Source of the DNA: Modestobacter sp. Leaf380
GTDB taxonomy: Bacteria; Actinomycetota; Actinomycetes; Mycobacteriales; Geodermatophilaceae
Assembly: GCF_001424485.1 (NCBI RefSeq)
Contig: NZ_LMQC01000001.1
Span: 625,755 to 689,754 of the forward strand
Direction: 5' to 3'
Length of the DNA stretch: 64,000 nucleotides
A program made the position numbers and the translations under genes. Shown here in pieces: positions 41,543 to 54,217 of the stretch (positions are counted from its first letter, which is position 1; each line of letters starts with the position of its first letter). Under the pieces are notes generated by a model that was given only the letters and a program-made list of their open reading frames with translations, was not told the DNA's origin and made no database searches.

Positions 41543-42235
41543 GTGATCGCTCGGGGACGTGACGCGCAACGGTGGCCGACCACAGCTGGAGGGACGGCGA
41601 GCACTCCTGCGCAGTGGGCCGCCGCCGAGGCGGCACTTGCCGACGCCCTCACCCCGCCAGACACCAGTGGCCGGACCCTGGACGGCGGGAGCCTCGCGAT
41701 CTCCTACGTGCCCTTCACCGACTGGGGTCGCGACGAGGGCCTCGACCTCTCGTGGGAGGTCCAGGCCGACTGGGGGACCAGACCCTGGCGTCCCACTCGT
41801 GTCGAGATCGGCGCGGGCGCAACCCTCGTCGAGGCGCTGGAGGACCTCCTCCTCTCGCGGCAGGTTCCTGCGCAGCACACGAACGCCGTGCAGCTGCGGT
41901 CCGCCGCAGCCACAGTCCTCGAGCAACAGTGGGTGGGGTGGAGCAGTCTCCTTGCTCGAGCGGCCGCCGTCGCCTCCCGTGGCCCCGCGTCGGCCGACGA
42001 ACCCAGCTCGAGCAGCGTCGACATGGTGGTGCGGTGGGACGACCACCGGCCCCCGCCCCACTGGGGGTGGGAGGTGACCGTGCCGTGGATCGACACGAGA
42101 GGCTCAGAACTCGGTGCGCACCGCTGGCTCGGCGACACCCCTGCCGAGGCCCTGCGGACTGCCTTGGCCGACGCACGTGAGTGGTACCGGCCCACCCCGG
42201 CGAAACGATTCGGACGACGCACGAGGTCGAGCTGA
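41543..42235 (+). CDS. Hypothetical protein
   Basis: 230 aa, acidic-neutral, Trp-rich (FTDWGRDEGLDLSWEVQADWG, HWGWEVTVPWIDT). No membrane segment or known motif. GTG at 41543 with CAAGCT 6 nt upstream. A weakly repeated pattern (LDLSWEVQADW, WGWEVTVPW) suggests a duplicated beta domain. First gene of an accessory stretch; codon third positions are slightly less GC-rich than neighbours. Confidence 0.6.
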   Translation: MIARGRDAQRWPTTAGGTASTPAQWAAAEAALADALTPPDTSGRTLDGGSLAISYVPFTDWGRDEGLDLSWEVQADWGTRPWRPTRVEIGAGATLVEALEDLLLSRQVPAQHTNAVQLRSAAATVLEQQWVGWSSLLARAAAVASRGPASADEPSSSSVDMVVRWDDHRPPPHWGWEVTVPWIDTRGSELGAHRWLGDTPAEALRTALADAREWYRPTPAKRFGRRTRSS

Positions 42236-46179: not shown

Positions 46180-47529
46180 ATGTCGAGCCCATCCCGCCTG
46201 TTCGCCCGCGGCACCTACGGCGAGGCCACCCGCATCGCCGCACTGCTCCGCAAGGAGACCGTCGGCGGCGTCCTGCTGATCCTCGGCGCGGTCATCGCCC
46301 TGGTCTGGGCCAACACCCCCTGGTCGGCGGCCTACGAGACGCTGCGCGACACCCGCGTCGGGCCGGCCTCGCTGCACCTGGACCTGACCCTGGGCACCTG
46401 GGCCGCCGACGGCCTGCTGGCGGTCTTCTTCTTCGTGGCCGGGCTGGAGCTCAAGCGCGAGTTCGTCGCCGGCGACCTGCGCGACCCACGCAAGGCCGCC
46501 CTGCCCGTCGCGGCCGCCGTCGGCGGCATCGCGGTCCCCGCCGTGATCTACACCGTCATCAACCTGGGCAGCGAGGACGGACTCACCGGCTGGGCCATCC
46601 CCACCGCCACCGACATCGCCTTCGCCCTCGCCGTCCTCGCGGTCATCAGCACCCACCTGCCGGCCGCGCTGCGCACGTTCCTGCTGACCCTGGCGATCGT
46701 CGACGACCTGCTGGCCATCACGATCATCGCGGTCTTCTACACCTCGTCCCTGGCGTTCGGCCCGCTCGCGCTGGCTCTCGTCCCGCTGGCGCTGTTCGGG
46801 TTCCTGGTGCAGAAGCGGGTCCGGCACTGGTGGCTGCTGCTGCCCCTCGCCGTCGCCACCTGGGTGCTCGTCCACGAGTCCGGCGTGCACGCCACGGTCG
46901 CCGCGGTCCTGCTCGCCTTCACGGTGCCGGTGGTCCGCCAGGCCCCCGGGGAGGGCCCCGGCCTCGCCGAGCACTTCGAGCACCGCATCCGGCCGATCTC
47001 GGCCGGCATCGCCGTCCCCGTGTTCGCGTTCTTCTCCGCCGGCGTCACCGTCGGCGGGCTGTCCGGGCTGGGCGCCTCGCTCACCGACACCGTGGCCATC
47101 GGCATCGTCGTGGGCCTGGTCGCCGGCAAGGCCATCGGCATCACCGGCGCCACCTGGCTGGTCAGCCGGTTCACCAAGGCCGAGCTGGACACCGACCTGC
47201 GCTGGCCCGACGTGATGGGCCTGTCCCTGCTGGCCGGCATCGGCTTCACCGTCTCGCTCCTGATCGGCGAGCTGGCCTTCGGCGCCGGCTCGTTGCGCGA
47301 CGAGCACGTCAAGGTCGGCGTCCTCACCGGCACGCTGATCGCCGCGCTGCTGGCCACCGCCGTGCTCAAGCCGCGGGACCGGGTCTACCGCCGCCTCGCC
47401 GAGGCCGAGGCCCGGGACGACGACGGCGACGGCATCCCCGACGTCTACCAGCGGGAGGGCCTCAGACCTCCGCGGGAGACCGTCGACGAGGCCTCCGAGC
47501 GACGCCGGAACCCCTCCGCCGAGAGCTGA
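46180..47529 (+). CDS. nhaA: Na+/H+ antiporter NhaA
   Basis: 449 aa, about 11-12 membrane helices. Family motifs [11 protein letters not shown] and the ion-binding Asp pair in [13 protein letters not shown] are intact, as is [14 protein letters not shown]. Exports Na+ (or Li+) in exchange for protons. ATG at 46180 after a structured 60-nt leader. The cytosolic tail holds [12 protein letters not shown], a thrombospondin-type calcium-binding-like loop, unusual for the family's minimal form. Confidence 0.95.
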
Positions 47530-47538
47530 AGAAGGGTG

Positions 47539-47568
47539 TTGCGCGGTCGGGAAAACCGGTCGTACCGT
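47539..47568 (+). promoter_or_regulatory. Promoter of the small 47.6-kb unit
   Basis: TTGCGC (47539-47544), 18-bp spacer, TACCGT (47563-47568), only 10 nt after the nhaA stop. Predicted transcript start is near 47576. Confidence 0.6.
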
Positions 47569-47579
47569 GGTGTCACACG

Positions 47580-47640
47580 AGAGAGGAGGTGGTCCGAACA
47601 ATTGATGTCGTTCAGGACGCGTGAGGTGGCTGTCCGCTAG
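47580..47640 (+). CDS. Possible 11-residue peptide gene with ultra-long SD
   Basis: ATG at 47605 to TAG at 47640 encodes MSFRTREVAVR. Upstream, AGAGAGGAGGTGGTCC (47580-47595) can pair along 16 nt (14 Watson-Crick, 2 G-U) with the usual actinobacterial 16S 3' end. The spacing to ATG is long (14 nt from AGGAGGT). A second tiny frame (GTG 47589 to TGA 47624) overlaps. Coding status is open; it may instead be a small regulatory RNA. Coordinates here include the SD. Confidence 0.4.
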
Positions 47641-47664
47641 CCGCCGTCCAGATGGGCCGCCCGC

Positions 47665-47689
47665 TCAGCACCGGATCAACCCGGTCTGA
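47665..47689 (+). terminator. Hairpin ending the small unit
   Basis: TCAG-ACCGG stem (9 bp, one bulged C) around ATCAAC. With the promoter at 47539 it defines a transcript of about 115 nt. The remaining 47690-47900 shows no gene. Confidence 0.5.
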
Positions 47690-47900
47690 CGCGTGTGGCA
47701 TCGCCCGTCCGCCGATGGCGGCGAGCGAGAACCGGACAGTCACCCGACCCCCGGGCCGCCGACCCAGTCCAGTCGGCCCGCGCGCAGCTCCCCCGCCCAC
47801 CAGCAGGGTCCAGCGCCGCGGAGCAGCCCGGGGGTTGTCCGTTCTCCGGAGGACCTGCGCACGACCCGCGGGAGACCCGCGAGGTCCCTAAGCTCGGCCC

Positions 47901-48614
47901 GTGCAGTTCGCCGGCCGGGAGCCCGAACCCGACGTCACCGTCGGTGCGTGGATCGCCGGGGCCGTCCGCCCCGGCGCCGGGCTCGCCGCCCTGATGCCGC
48001 CGGTCTTCCCGGCCACCGCCCGGGTGCTGCACCCCGCCGCCCGGTACGTCGGGGACGACGACGTCGACGTCCGCTGGGCCGACGTCGCCGCGGCCAACGG
48101 CACCACCGCGCACCCGCAGATGACGTGGGGCGCGATCACCGGCTCCCTCGACTTCTACGAGGAGGCCGACCAGAGCCCGCTGTGGGAGGGCGCCCCCGCC
48201 CGTGGCCACCTGACCGAGCAGGTCGCCGAGGTCCTGGTCGACGTCCTCGCCCGACACACCGGCACCCCCGGGGACTGCTGGTTCGGCGTCTGGGACGCCC
48301 ATCCCGGGCTGCACGCCCACCAGGCCCGGCTGACCGTCGGGCCCCGGTCCTACTGGCTGGTCCACGGCCCGGTGACCCTGGCCTGCCAGAACATGGCCCC
48401 CGAGCCGCTGGACCAGAGCGCCAACCTGTGGTGGCCGGCCGACCGGGCCTGGTGCGTGCTCACCGACGTCGAGCTGGTCAGCACCTACGTCGGCGGCTCG
48501 ACCGCCTGCATCGCCGAGCTGCTCGCCGACCCCCGGCTGGAGTGCCTGCCGGCCACCGCCGACCAACCGGTCGGGGACGACGCCGACACGGTCAACCCGC
48601 CGCCGGACTCCTGA
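47901..48614 (+). CDS. Conserved hypothetical protein
   Basis: 237 aa, soluble, Trp-rich, acidic (LDFYEEADQSPLWEGAPARG, SANLWWPADRAWCVLTDVELVSTYVGGS). Resembles uncharacterised actinobacterial proteins seen without fixed neighbours. GTG at 47901 with TAAGCT 6 nt upstream, leaderless. The 3' end overlaps the convergent gene by 23 bp. Confidence 0.72.
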   Translation: MQFAGREPEPDVTVGAWIAGAVRPGAGLAALMPPVFPATARVLHPAARYVGDDDVDVRWADVAAANGTTAHPQMTWGAITGSLDFYEEADQSPLWEGAPARGHLTEQVAEVLVDVLARHTGTPGDCWFGVWDAHPGLHAHQARLTVGPRSYWLVHGPVTLACQNMAPEPLDQSANLWWPADRAWCVLTDVELVSTYVGGSTACIAELLADPRLECLPATADQPVGDDADTVNPPPDS

Positions 48615-49630: not shown

Positions 49631-51310
49631 TCACAGCCGGCTGAGCTCGTCGGCCAGGTCGTCCAGGCCCAGGCTGCCCTGGGACAGCGCGGCCATGTGC
49701 CAGGCCTTGAGGTCGAAGGCGTCCCCGTGTGCGGCCTGCGCGGCCGCCCGGCCCTGCAGCCAGGCACGCTCCCCCAGCTTGTAGCTGATCGCCTGCCCGG
49801 GCATGCCCAGGTAGCGGACCAGCTCGCTGTCCAGGAAGTCGGTGTCCCGGCCGCAGTACTCGCCGAAGAACGCCCGGGCCAGCTCGGGGGTCCACCGCTG
49901 CCCGCGGTGCTCGGCCAGCGCCCCGTCGGCGTCGGCGGGGATCGGCAGCTCCAGGTGCATGCCGATGTCCACGACGACCCGGACGGCGCGCATCTGCTGG
50001 GCGTCCAGGTAGCCCAGCCGGGCGCCGGGGTCGGTGAGGAAGCCCAGCTCGTCCATCAGCCGCTCGGCGTAGAGCGCCCAGCCCTCGACGTTGGCCCCCA
50101 CCGACCCCAGCGAGGTCTGGTAGGTCGACAGGTCCCCGCTCACGTAGGCCCACTGGGCCAGCTGCAGGTGGTGGCCCGGGACGCCCTCGTGGTACCAGGT
50201 GGACACCAGGTCCCACAGCGGGAAGCGGTCCTTGCCCAGCGTGGGCAGCCAGGTCCGGCCTGGGCGGGAGAAGTCCTGCGCGGGGCGGGTGTAGTACGGC
50301 GCGGCCGCGCTGCCGGGCGGGGCGATCATGGCCTCGACCCGGCGGATCGGCTCGGCCAGCTCGAAGTGCGTGCCGTCCAGGGCCTCGATGGCGTCGTCCA
50401 TCATCTGCTGCAGCCGCAGCCGGACCTGCTCGACGCCCTCGACGGCGGGCCCGTTCTCCCCCAGCCAGCGCATCGCCTGCATCGGGGTGGCCCCGGGCAG
50501 CACCTGCTCGGCGGCGGCGCGCTGCTCCTCGCGGATGCGCAGGTGCTCGGCCCAGCCCCAGGCGTAGGCGTCCTCGAGCCCCGTGCCGTGGCCCAGGTCC
50601 GTGCCGTTCCAGGACCGGGCGAAGCGGGCGTACCGGTCCCGGCCCACGGCGTCCGGGGTGCCCTGTGCCTGGCGCAGGTAGGTGTCGCGGAGGAAGTCGC
50701 GCACCTGGGCGACGGCGTCGTCCGCCGCAGCGGCCGCGGCGTCCAGCTCGGTGCGCAGCTCCGCGGGGCCGGCCGCGACGACGCCGGCGTAGTACGGCCC
50801 GGCCAGCCACTCGTCCAGCTGCCCGATCACGGTCTCCACCTGGCGCGGGGCGGCGAAGAGCCCGCGGGCCGCACCCTCGGTCAGCGAGGCCAGGTACCCG
50901 CGGTGCGCCTCGGGCACCCGGGCGAGCCGCCGTCCCAGCACACCCCAGTCCTCCACTGTCGCGGTCGGCATCATCGTGAAGGCCTGCCGCACCTGGTGGA
51001 CCGGGGAGAACAGGTTGGAGACCTCGCGCAGGCCCTCGCCGGCCTCGTGCAGGTCCAGCGCGGCACCCAGCCGCTCGCGCAGCAGCCGGGCGCAGCGCGC
51101 CTCGACCGGGTCCTCCGCCAGCGCCGGGTCCTGCTCGAGCGCCCGGTCCAGGTCGGCCAGGGTGTCCCGCTGCAGCTGTGCCTCGGCGGCCAGGCCGGCC
51201 GGGGACAGGTCGGGCAGTCCGTCGACGGCCTGCCCGAGGCCGGTGGCCACGATCGGGTTGAGCTCGCAGACGGCGGCGACGTGGGCATCGGCGATCTGGC
51301 GCGGGGTCAT
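49631..51310 (-). CDS. DUF885 family metallopeptidase-like protein
   Basis: 559 aa, soluble. The catalytic-type motif YHEGVPGHHLQ (HExxPGHH) near residue 375 and later EGWALYAERLMDELG give the gluzincin-like zinc ligands and glutamate of the DUF885 family, probable peptidases. ATG at 51310 with GGAGAGG 5 nt upstream, overlapping the nitrobindin gene stop by 4 bp. No signal peptide, so cytosolic. Confidence 0.88.
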   Translation of the reverse strand: MTPRQIADAHVAAVCELNPIVATGLGQAVDGLPDLSPAGLAAEAQLQRDTLADLDRALEQDPALAEDPVEARCARLLRERLGAALDLHEAGEGLREVSNLFSPVHQVRQAFTMMPTATVEDWGVLGRRLARVPEAHRGYLASLTEGAARGLFAAPRQVETVIGQLDEWLAGPYYAGVVAAGPAELRTELDAAAAAADDAVAQVRDFLRDTYLRQAQGTPDAVGRDRYARFARSWNGTDLGHGTGLEDAYAWGWAEHLRIREEQRAAAEQVLPGATPMQAMRWLGENGPAVEGVEQVRLRLQQMMDDAIEALDGTHFELAEPIRRVEAMIAPPGSAAAPYYTRPAQDFSRPGRTWLPTLGKDRFPLWDLVSTWYHEGVPGHHLQLAQWAYVSGDLSTYQTSLGSVGANVEGWALYAERLMDELGFLTDPGARLGYLDAQQMRAVRVVVDIGMHLELPIPADADGALAEHRGQRWTPELARAFFGEYCGRDTDFLDSELVRYLGMPGQAISYKLGERAWLQGRAAAQAAHGDAFDLKAWHMAALSQGSLGLDDLADELSRL

Positions 51311-51879
51311 CGGATCCTCTCCAGGCGGGCGGACATCACCGGGCGGAGCTGGCCGTCGGCACCGGCGTGGTCCACGGCGTACATCAGCGCACCCTCGACG
51401 ATCCCGTAGAGCCGGGCCGCCTTGGTGACGTCGGGGTGGTCGGGGGTGCGGGCCAGCACGTCGGTGGCCAGCTCCCAGCTGGTGGTGCTGCGGGCGGTGC
51501 CGACGAGGATCTCGACCAGGCCCTCCGGGTGGGCGACGAGGAGCTCGACCTCGTCCTCCCCGCGCGGCCGCCAGAAACCGGACTCCCGGACGTCGGGGCC
51601 GGCGACCGTGCCGTCCTCGGCGATCCGCCAGGTCCGGGACTCGTAGGACAGGAAGTCCCGCCCGTCGTGGGCGAACCGCACCCACTGCCCGAACCGGTGG
51701 TCCCCGGCGGACCCGGCGGCCTGCCCCTCCCCGTGCCACTCGCCCAGCAGCGGCAGCACCGAGAGCAGCTCGTGCGCCACCTCCGGCCCGGTCCGGACGT
51801 CGGTGGTCTCCTCCACCGGCAGCTCGGTGCGGCCGGCGACCGGCTGCTCGGGCAGCCCGGCGGGCGTCGGGTTCGTCAC
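51307..51879 (-). CDS. Nitrobindin/FABP-like haem-binding protein
   Basis: 190 aa beta-barrel. LLGEWHGEGQ is the conserved N-terminal barrel motif of nitrobindins (usually GxWxGxG), and the barrel ends with RLYGIVEGALMYAVDHA; the C-terminal histidine that binds haem may be in AVDHAG. Nitrobindins scavenge peroxynitrite or NO. GTG overlaps the preceding small gene by 4 bp. Confidence 0.85.
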   Translation of the reverse strand: MTNPTPAGLPEQPVAGRTELPVEETTDVRTGPEVAHELLSVLPLLGEWHGEGQAAGSAGDHRFGQWVRFAHDGRDFLSYESRTWRIAEDGTVAGPDVRESGFWRPRGEDEVELLVAHPEGLVEILVGTARSTTSWELATDVLARTPDHPDVTKAARLYGIVEGALMYAVDHAGADGQLRPVMSARLERIR

Positions 51880-51989
51880 CGGACACCCCCGCTGCGCTCG
51901 CGACGTGTCAGCCGCACGGCCCCGGCGGCGCACCACAGCGCGGCGAGGACGGCGAGGGCGACGAGGACCCAGGCAGTGAGCAGACCCAT
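51876..51989 (-). CDS. 37-residue single-helix membrane protein
   Basis: ATG 51989 to TGA 51876: MGLLTAWVLVALAVLAALW, then CAAGAVRLTRRERSGGVR. One transmembrane helix and a basic cytosolic end. The GTGA overlap with the nitrobindin start and the composition support a real gene that heads this operon. Too short for most gene finders; no known family. Confidence 0.6.
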   Translation of the reverse strand: MGLLTAWVLVALAVLAALWCAAGAVRLTRRERSGGVR

Positions 51990-52012
51990 GCCCGCCACGG
52001 TAGCGAGCGGGT

Positions 52013-54217
52013 TTGCCGCCGTCCCCCCGCGCGCACCCCCGGGAGGTGGAGACCACCGCGCCGACGCCGTCCGGGACCGAGCCGTGGGAGGGGTGGGCCG
52101 GGCACCACGCGACCGCCCGGGCGCTGGTCGAGCAGCTGACCCTCGCCGAGGCGGTGTCCCTGGTGAGCGCCCCGATGGGCATCGGCCCGGACGCCCCGGC
52201 CGACGCCGTGGGGTCAGCAGCGCACACCCCGGGCGTCGAGCGGCTGGGCATCCCCGGCTGGGACGAGTCCGACGCGAGCCTCGGCGTCACCAACCCGATG
52301 GGCGCGCGCGGACCGGACGACGACGCCACCGCCTTCCCCTCCGGACCCGCCCTGGCCGCGACCTTCGACCCCGACCTGGCCCGGCAGGTGGGCGAGGCGG
52401 TCGGCGCGGAGGCACACGCCCATGGCGTCGCCGTCCAGCTGGCCGGCGGGATGAACCTGGTGCGCGACCCGCGCGGCGGGCGGGTCTTCGAGTACCTGTC
52501 CGAGGACGTGCTGCTGTCGGGCGTGCTGGCCGGGGCCTCCGTGGCCGGCATCCAGTCCCGGGGGGTGGCCGCCACCCTCAAGCACTTCGCGCTGAACCCC
52601 TCGGAGACCGGCCGGGTGGTGGTCAGCTCCGACCTGTCCGAGCCGGCGCTGCGCGAGTCGGACCTGCTGGCCTTCCAGATCGCCCACGAGCGCGGCCGCC
52701 CGCGTGCGGTGATGCCCGGCTACAACCTGGTCAACGGCGTCTACGCCAGCGAGTCCCACCACCTGCTCACCCAGGTGCTCAAGGGCGACTGGGGCTTCGG
52801 CGGGTTCGTGATGAGCGACTGGGGCGCCACCCACTCCACCGTGCACGCCGCCGTCGCCGGGCTGGACCGGCAGTCCGGCCACGGCCTGGACACCCGGCAC
52901 TTCTTCGGCGCCGACCTGCTCGCCGCCGTCGAGTCCGGGCGGGTGCCCCGGGAGCGGCTGGACGACATGGTCACCCGCATCCTCACCGCGCTGGCCTCCG
53001 TCGGCGCCCTCGGCGAGCGCCGCCGGCCCCGTGCCCTGGACCTCGCCCCGCACGCCGCCCTGGCCGCCCGCGTCGCCGCCGGGTCGGTGGTGCTGCTGCG
53101 CAACACCGACCACGTGCTGCCCCTGGCGGGCACCGGCCGGCTGCTGGTCGTCGGCGCGCACGCCGACACCGGCGTGATCAGCGGCGGCGGCAGCTCGACG
53201 GTCACCCCGCCCGGCACGGTCACCGACGGCGGCTCGCAGATCGCCCAGATGGAGCTGCCCCGCGCCTTCCACGCCCCCGCCCCGCTCGACGCCCTGCGCG
53301 AGCGGTGGGACGGCGAGGTCAGCTGGCTCGACGGCGCCGACGTCCCGGCGGCGGTGGCCGCCGCCGGGTCGGCCGACACCGTCGTGGTGGTCGCCGAGAA
53401 GTGGTCCACCGAGGGCCAGGACTCCCCCGACCTGTCCCTGGGCGACGGGCAGGACGAGCTGATCACCGCGCTGGCCGCGGCGAACGACCGGCTCGTCGTC
53501 GTCCTCACGGTGCCCTCGGCGGTGACCATGCCCTGGCTCGACGACGTCGCCGCGGTGCTGGTCGCCTGGTACGGCGGCCAGGCCGGGGCGGGTGCGATCG
53601 CCGACGTGCTCACCGGGGTGGCACCGCCCGCGGGCCGGCTGCCGATCACCTTCCCGCGGTCGGAGTCCCAGCTGCCCCGACCCGACGTCCTGGACCCGGC
53701 CGGGCTGGCCTCCAACCCCGGCGAACCCCGCCGGGGCGGGTACCCGCGGGTCTCCTACGACGTCGAGGGCGCCGACGTCGGGTACCGCTGGTTCGAGCGG
53801 GAGCGGCTGGACCCGCTGTTCCCCTTCGGCGCCGGGCTCTCCACCACCACCGTCGAGTGGTCGCAGGTGTCGGTCGCGGTGGAGGACGGCGCCCCGGTGG
53901 CCACCCTCACGCTGACCAACACCGGCACCCGGGCCGGGGTCGAGACCCCGCAGGTGTACGTGGCCCCACCCGCGCTGCCCGACCGCTCGGCCACCCGGCG
54001 GCTGGCCGGCTGGGCCCGGGTTGCGCTGGAGCCCGGCGAGAGCCGCACGGTGTCGATCCGCTGCGACGAGCCCCGGGTGCTGTCCGCCTACGACGCCGAC
54101 GACCCGGGCTGGACCCGGGCCGCCGGCCGGTACGCCGTCCGGGTGGCCCGGGACGCCGCCGCCCGCCCGGTGCTGGAGGCGGAGGTCGAGCTGCCCCGGT
54201 TGCGGCTGGCGCCCTAG
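52013..54217 (+). CDS. Glycoside hydrolase family 3 beta-glucosidase
   Basis: 734 aa. GH3 N-domain with LAGGMNLVRDPRGGRVFEYL, KHFALNP and the nucleophile in GFVMSDWGATHS; C-domain (GSVVLLRNTDHVLPL, LVVVLTVPSAVTMPWL, AWYGGQAGAGAIADVL) and a C-terminal fibronectin-III-like domain. No signal peptide, so intracellular glucoside cleavage. Start uncertain: TTG at 52013 or GTG at 52046. Its TAG stop and the convergent gene's stop share the same CTAG. Confidence 0.9.
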   Translation: MPPSPRAHPREVETTAPTPSGTEPWEGWAGHHATARALVEQLTLAEAVSLVSAPMGIGPDAPADAVGSAAHTPGVERLGIPGWDESDASLGVTNPMGARGPDDDATAFPSGPALAATFDPDLARQVGEAVGAEAHAHGVAVQLAGGMNLVRDPRGGRVFEYLSEDVLLSGVLAGASVAGIQSRGVAATLKHFALNPSETGRVVVSSDLSEPALRESDLLAFQIAHERGRPRAVMPGYNLVNGVYASESHHLLTQVLKGDWGFGGFVMSDWGATHSTVHAAVAGLDRQSGHGLDTRHFFGADLLAAVESGRVPRERLDDMVTRILTALASVGALGERRRPRALDLAPHAALAARVAAGSVVLLRNTDHVLPLAGTGRLLVVGAHADTGVISGGGSSTVTPPGTVTDGGSQIAQMELPRAFHAPAPLDALRERWDGEVSWLDGADVPAAVAAAGSADTVVVVAEKWSTEGQDSPDLSLGDGQDELITALAAANDRLVVVLTVPSAVTMPWLDDVAAVLVAWYGGQAGAGAIADVLTGVAPPAGRLPITFPRSESQLPRPDVLDPAGLASNPGEPRRGGYPRVSYDVEGADVGYRWFERERLDPLFPFGAGLSTTTVEWSQVSVAVEDGAPVATLTLTNTGTRAGVETPQVYVAPPALPDRSATRRLAGWARVALEPGESRTVSIRCDEPRVLSAYDADDPGWTRAAGRYAVRVARDAAARPVLEAEVELPRLRLAP

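Follow-up and report, generated by a model that had tools for sequence, protein, structure and literature searches.

In ribosome-entrapment leaders, such as those of rpsO/S15 and alpha operon/S4, a fold beside the Shine-Dalgarno (SD) sequence and the start codon lets the 30S subunit bind and hampers elongation. Near-AUG start codons make initiation dependent on initiation factor 3 (IF3), and the AUU start of infC serves the autoregulation of that factor. Dual-function small RNAs (sRNAs), represented by SgrS/SgrT and RNAIII, are small RNAs with a short open reading frame (ORF). The RNA considered here can be set beside each of these. It lies on the forward strand of a 64,000-nt stretch of the Modestobacter sp. 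Leaf380 genome (the window; contig NZ_LMQC01000001.1, positions 625,755 to 689,754), belongs to the Rfam family RF02471 (Ms_IGR-5), and carries a 16-nt complement of the 3' tail of 16S rRNA followed by a mini-ORF. Judged by anatomy alone, it may work like the entrapment leaders; however, its mini-ORF lies inside the fold, and no ribosomal-protein gene was seen adjoining it in the loci looked at. Near-AUG starts are shared with infC, but RF02471 is not a protein gene and its start varies among AUG and its neighbours. Compared with the dual-function sRNAs, its ORF is shorter, is embedded in conserved helices and is accompanied by a 16-nt match to 16S rRNA.

The locus matches the Rfam covariance model with 75.5 bits (gathering score 45; E 6.8e-15) over positions 1-184, the full model length, and is the only RF02471 copy in its genome. 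Like the Ms1/6S-like RNA (scr3559, MTS2823), RF02471 is a widespread actinobacterial structured sRNA, but the two are separate RNAs. Identity with Ms1/6S was the first guess for this locus and was ruled out; PMC10454040 has separate M. smegmatis entries for IGR-5 (ncMSMEG15794c) and Ms1, and Ms1 of S. coelicolor is placed between sco3558 and sco3559 (PMC9130861). These statements, and those below that carry PMC numbers, concern the available passages of the papers. Such passages give RNA sequencing (RNA-seq) support for the RF02471 RNA in S. lividans (PMC8079986), a transcription unit in S. avermitilis (PMC8780764), an overlap of Ms_IGR-5 with the listed M. smegmatis sRNA ncMSMEG15794c (PMC10454040), and ribosome-protected reads over the homologues in M. 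abscessus and M. smegmatis (PMC4974804). The name scr4389 of S. coelicolor appears in PMC8388888 and may denote the Streptomyces homologue. No account of RF02471 function, 16S pairing or ORF was met in the literature searched, which consists mainly of openly accessible papers and excludes the original Ms_IGR-5 report, and the available passages of PMC4191392, PMC11077062 and PMC4633059 make no mention of the RNA. The first-pass annotation of this DNA had regarded nothing of this kind as known at the locus, which is incorrect as regards the RNA itself, a catalogued one; a described function was not met in that literature.

Selected pairing with the 16S rRNA tail and a conserved reading frame

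The comparative set comprises 236 loci, 119 found with the covariance model and 117 with a sequence pattern. The pattern used for the loci from named genomes fixed run positions 6-16, and fair tests of the tail match are therefore those of positions 1-5 and those on the 104 distinct, model-found loci that were not picked by pattern. With GGATCACCTCCTTTCT, the 3' end of this genome's own 16S gene, the run forms 14 Watson-Crick and 2 G-U pairs, exactly as first annotated. Across the 236 loci, all 16 positions are paired in 215 and 15 of 16 in the remaining 21. Positions 2, 6, 7, 9, 10 and 12, which stand opposite C, are G in every locus; positions 3, 4, 5 and 8, opposite U, are exclusively A or G, the exceptions opposite U being position 1 (neither A nor G in 20 loci) and position 13 (a single T); and positions opposite G are C or T. 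The 104 model-found loci have the same base preferences along the run. At the level of base choice, this comparison shows the full 16S-tail match to be under selection.

The match is also rare. The pattern RGRRRGGRGGTGRTYY, the 16-nt Watson-Crick or G-U partner of the tail, occurs twice in the 4.76 Mb of this genome, in the rRNA gene antisense and in this RNA only, and its reversed control does not occur. In 41 genomes, this one included, 87 full-tail matches comprise 33 in rRNA-antisense letters, 35 in this RNA and 19 others, a split counted by hand from the listing, with the antisense identity as rRNA checked in the window's own genome only; the reversed pattern gives 14 matches in the same genomes, so that the 19 others are near chance level. 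Among nine of these 19 that were examined, a start codon follows within 14 nt in three (L261, L264 and L266) but in none of the other six. Within the window, 57,580 20-mers (every second base, both strands, GG-containing only) were scanned for duplexes with the tail, and the run forms the strongest of the sampled sites at -30.0 kcal/mol. The next separate site, at 41858 on the minus strand, reaches -23.7 kcal/mol.

Downstream of the run, an in-frame start codon (AUG, GUG, UUG, CUG, AUU, AUC and AUA were counted) lies 8-14 nt after GGAGG in 233 of the 236 loci, versus 57 and 57 in the other two frames. The corresponding counts for the 104 model-found loci are 100 versus 21 and 31, with L111 and L115 entered as misses and L112 given a shorter frame. 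The three loci without a counted start, two of them apparently one contig, carry ACG at that place. In 114 of the 119 model-found loci, the triplet at a set distance past GAGGTG is a stop codon (TAG 97, TGA 12, TAA 5), the five non-stop triplets being AGG in four loci and CGC in one, whereas four neighbouring offsets hold 0, 4, 0 and 0 stops. Because in-frame starts and stops are conserved even though the SD-to-stop distance takes all three values modulo 3 (67/65/104 of the 236 loci), comparison shows the frame from start to stop to be kept, as expected under selection. Two overlapping frames of 11 residues had been annotated at the locus. The one ending at UAG 47638-47640 is the conserved frame, but it comprises 12 codons from the UUG at 47602, the in-frame AUG being codon 2 in the window; the second runs from GTG 47589 to TGA 47622-47624.

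The starts picked in the 233 loci are TTG in 138, ATG in 52, GTG in 20, CTG in 13, ATC in 5, ATT in 4 and ATA in 1, the upstream UUG being taken where UUG and AUG both fit; 181 are thus non-AUG, and 18 UUG-start loci, including the window, have an in-frame AUG within codons 2-4. ORF length is 12 codons in 178 loci, 13 in 19, 14 in 29, 15 in 4 and 10 in 3. Taken together with the base choice, the frame bears on one alternative, an ordinary sRNA with a chance SD-like purine run. Purine runs are common, and the reversed pattern does occur 14 times in the 41 genomes; however, base choice tracks 16S pairing position by position, the frame is locked, and every locus has the run at an identical place in this RNA. 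This explanation, already refuted by base choice and frame lock, retains a negligible probability.

Internal partial copies of the 16S tail are present in four distant members, L078, L083, L108 and L114 (GGACCACCUCC, GGAUCACC, GGACCACC and GGGAUCACCUCCC, respectively). They are not general among distant members; they can pair with the SD of their own RNA, which makes them a possible built-in off state.

Helices that enclose the mini-ORF

Helices P1 and P3 were derived from clade-wise alignments and from a joint alignment built without structure, whereas P3a, P4 and P4a were drawn from clade alignments and folding together with the Rfam model (Table 1). Over the 236 loci, P1 is canonical in 97.3% of 927 cells, with 139 double-change cells versus a shuffle maximum of 33. 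P3, which pairs GGUGGCUG with CAGUCACC, is canonical over nine pairs in 96.3% of 2105 cells, with 160 double-change cells versus a shuffle maximum of 61; its fifth pair is weak (canonical in 179 of 232 loci). Controls with slid partners reach at most 66.3% canonical pairs, and among 140 sequences below 75% identity the values remain 96.7% for P1 and 95.6% for P3. In this alignment comparison, P1 and P3 are shown to covary well beyond shuffles and slid controls. Neither helix is part of the printed Rfam consensus, which pairs the SD with ORF bases instead, and the 16S pairing and the ORF are likewise absent from that consensus and from the available passages of the papers. The first consensus helix, between SD and ORF, has only one-sided changes and mismatches across the 236 loci, and on this alignment evidence P1 and P3 are better supported than it is.

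Folding of the window RNA with P1-conflicting pairs excluded yields -143.0 kcal/mol, versus -145.0 kcal/mol when free, and the resulting fold contains P1, P2, P3 (11 bp), P3a, P4 and P4a. The segment 47575-47860 folds better than all of 200 shuffles (z -5.0). When P1-conflicting pairs are disallowed, the ten leading bases of the run average 72% unpaired, versus 34% in free folding of the entire RNA (36 of the 119 model-found loci). The predicted helix P2 is nearly invariant, and an alignment indicates that two of its pairs are broken in 17 of 236 loci; it is for these reasons without covariation support. Its 3' strand, GGAC, may alternatively form a pseudoknot with the GUCC loop of P4a, an arm located in 212 of the 236 loci. 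The test of this pairing covers these 212, the 24 loci in which the loop was not located being left out. The core is nearly invariant; the flanking pairs exceed the shuffle maximum at three positions (128 versus 101, 204 versus 200, 80 versus 73) and do not exceed it at three others (129 versus 129, 51 versus 62, 19 versus 33), and the mean helix is 5.25 versus a shuffle maximum of 5.07 (153 distinct loci, with kinship between loci uncorrected). The pseudoknot is only suggested by these counts.

The recurrence of the P4/P4a arm with its GUCC loop in those 212 loci also favours a base-pairing or dual-function sRNA, in which the 3' part (the P3 3' strand and the P4a loop) would pair with mRNAs and translation of the mini-ORF would switch it or set its stability. 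Translation would release the P3 3' strand, and the family is listed among M. smegmatis sRNAs in the available passage. The strongest constraint, however, falls on the 16S match, P1, P3 and the frame, and we regard such a role as rather unlikely.

A functional peptide of 12-15 residues, which might for instance arrest the ribosome at its stop codon, is a further alternative. Arrest peptides act at the stop codon; the frame is kept, the peptides take forms such as ..RTREVAVR and ..GTLEVAGR with E-V in most loci, and the conserved residues end at the stop codon. Nevertheless, codons 5-12 overlap GGAC, P1 and P3, and much of the residue conservation can be put down to the pairs of these elements, with changes in codon 7 tracking P1. 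In addition, the distant group L106, L111, L112 and L115 keeps SD, start and stop but reads the conserved GGAGGTG in another frame and has other peptides. The peptide sequence thus seems largely dictated by RNA pairing, and a function of the peptide itself is improbable. One of the two roles originally offered for the locus, translation of a very short peptide at high rate, fits poorly with this and with the predominance of non-AUG starts.

Table 1. Elements of the RF02471 locus, in window coordinates
Feature	Position	Strand	Basis or remark
-35 element TTGCGC	47539-47544	+	read in sequence; TTG at -36 to -34 enriched, 235 loci
-10 element TACCGT, 18-nt spacer	47563-47568	+	read in sequence
sRNA RF02471 (Ms_IGR-5)	47575-47843	+	Rfam covariance match; 3' end putative
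P1, 5' strand CACG	47576-47579	+	pairs with 47620-47623; covariation
16-nt 16S-tail complement (extended SD) AGAGAGGAGGTGGTCC	47580-47595	+	read in sequence; pairing comparison
P2, 5' strand GUCC	47592-47595	+	predicted to pair with 47615-47618, in competition with the 16S tail
Mini-ORF, UUG start, 12 codons, peptide ending MSFRTREVAVR	47602-47640	+	frame-locked across loci
GGAC, P2 3' strand or pseudoknot strand to P4a loop 47767-47770	47615-47618	+	candidate
P1, 3' strand CGUG (codon 7 and first base of codon 8)	47620-47623	+	covariation
P3, 5' strand GGUGGCUGUCC (codons 8-12)	47625-47635	+	11 bp with 47734-47744
P3a, 5' strand, contains stop codon	47636-47648	+	predicted; pairs with 47714-47726
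P3a, 3' strand	47714-47726	+	predicted
P3, 3' strand GGACAGUCACC	47734-47744	+	covariation, fold
P4 arm	47745-47837	+	47745-47756 with 47826-47837; clade alignments, Rfam model, folding
P4a hairpin within P4	47758-47763 with 47772-47777	+	loop GUCC 47767-47770

Promoter, distribution and neighbouring genes

The gene nhaA (46180-47529; Pfam Na_H_antiport_1) lies directly upstream of the sRNA locus. The promoter elements proposed there by the first-pass annotation are at their stated positions. A consensus promoter scan called none at the locus, and support for the promoter comes from conservation across 235 loci: besides the -35 signal, T/A at -12, A at -11 and T at -7 relative to the RNA start are enriched, and the RNA probably starts near 47575. 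Conserved alongside are an A-tract 5' of the -35 element (-45 to -41 from the RNA start) and a G-rich discriminator (-6 to -2), traits associated with growth-rate-controlled promoters. The proposed end of the unit near 47689, by contrast, is too early, as the RNA extends about 150 nt further, with the family match reaching 47843. What had been taken for a terminator-like hairpin near 47670-47685 is instead the tip of the long internal arm P3a, and a search of 47400-48000 for intrinsic terminators found none, that is, no U-tract terminator.

The RNA is conserved in related genomes, with RF02471 present in 53 of 60 genomes, this one included, and in none of 14 control genomes. One genome scored without it (G046) carries the RNA cut by a contig end (L262), which means that some absences are assembly gaps; of the other six without a match, two (G012 and G022) are less than 80% complete. 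Among 396 genomes sampled evenly across the phylum, 70 have RF02471 at E <=0.001 and 35 above the cut-off, numbers that are lower bounds given the strict filters. The pattern scan of named genomes returned at least 120 stretches; among the matches listed all titles are Actinomycetota, including Acidimicrobiia and a Solirubrobacteraceae bacterium. Phage copies were considered as well, but the 16 viral matches to a loose pattern are, by eye, without the other conserved elements.

The genes that follow the RNA bear on whether it is a leader or attenuator, with translation of the mini-ORF setting read-through into a downstream gene. A short ORF overlapping helices ahead of a strong hairpin is attenuator anatomy. 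In the window, the RNA is followed by an ORF of 237 codons on the same strand (47901-48614) without a Pfam match. This ORF is conserved in the window's own family, where 23 loci, this one included, have it downstream of the RNA in the same orientation, mostly 16-108 nt past the RNA match. Thirteen of the 23 have no promoter of the tested type just before their start, seven have GGAGG within 40 nt before it, and an intrinsic terminator follows the RNA in just 1 of 75 loci among L001-L077, versus 0 of 75 controls. On the other side, ten of the 23 ORFs, including that of the window, have TAnnnT 5-8 nt before the start, versus 18 of 1150 random stretches; the window copy has TAAGCT six bases before its GTG, which resembles a leaderless promoter. 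Outside this family, downstream genes that can be recognised usually lie on the opposite strand, as with a THAP4-like gene (32 of the 34 loci in which it was found, with 8 cases within 100 nt), ligA (11 of 12) and a sulfurtransferase gene (11 of 13), citrate synthase being mixed (5 and 5). Moreover, an intrinsic terminator follows the RNA in 16 of 43 distant loci (L078-L120) versus 2 of 38 control stretches. Judging from this gene order, the RNA is probably not a leader in most lineages looked at, and attenuation is unlikely for the family as a whole; the leader explanation is overall quite unlikely, although in the window's own family the RNA may also influence the following same-strand gene. 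The window itself encodes a THAP4-like heme-binding protein (PF08768) at 51307-52119 on the minus strand.

A possible gauge of free 30S subunits

An RNA that titrates or senses ribosomes, the other role first offered for this locus, is the best reading of these comparisons. In the form proposed here, which we hold tentatively and at a little under even confidence, a folded small RNA would dock on the 30S subunit, be refolded by translation from a weak start, and so sense or trap free 30S subunits. P1 would hold the 5' end such that the first bases of the extended SD tend to be free, and the entire 16-nt tail of 16S rRNA would zip onto the run, in the strongest such pairing among the sampled sites of the window. 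The ribosome would then initiate 8-13 nt past GGAGG, in most loci at a weak start codon, UUG or another of the near-AUG kind. The following codons would lie in P1, P3 and P3a, as well as in P2 or the pseudoknot, and the ribosome would therefore have to unfold the RNA in order to read the 12-15 codons. Two states would result, one folded or 30S-bound and waiting, the other translated and opened, and the RNA would report on, or buffer, how many free 30S subunits are available and competent for initiation. That the RNA binds the 30S subunit stably, is refolded by translation and has a physiological output are steps that we infer from its anatomy.

Several observations weigh against docking on the 30S subunit. 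P1 is missing from the unconstrained minimum of the window RNA, which lies 2 kcal/mol below the fold with P1; the run is on average only 43% unpaired in free folding, and in locus L120 it is mostly closed even when P1 is favoured. Position 1 of the run is unpaired in 20 of the 236 loci. The 52 AUG starts among 233 loci, together with the 18 further loci that have an AUG within codons 2-4, mean that a weak start is not obligatory. The ribosome-protected reads, which count in favour of docking, are subject to the caution of the authors of PMC4974804 that structured RNAs can yield ribosome footprints. A role in titration would need a high RNA copy number. Lastly, the conserved gene downstream of the RNA on its strand in the window's own family adds weight to the leader explanation and takes some from docking, from the base-pairing sRNA and from the broader proposal given below. 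The main rival to docking is a translation-gated base-pairing sRNA, and the second is a leader role in the window's own family.

What is new relative to the printed Rfam consensus and the available passages of the papers is the selected 16S-tail pairing, the covarying helices P1 and P3 and the frame-locked mini-ORF. A catalogued sRNA without a described function in the literature searched carries the strongest sampled ribosome-binding signal of the window; it holds one of the only two full 16S-tail complements in its own genome, and its frame is kept across large evolutionary distances. A broader proposal, possible but doubtful, is that the RNA serves as a ribosome gauge over several classes of Actinomycetota, competing for 30S subunits through the full tail complement while its near-AUG start ties its translation, fold and fate to the ratio of free 30S subunits to initiation factors. 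If the RNA does gauge or buffer 30S subunits, it would parallel, on the side of translation, the Ms1/6S RNAs that bind RNA polymerase; the phylum includes antibiotic producers and pathogens.
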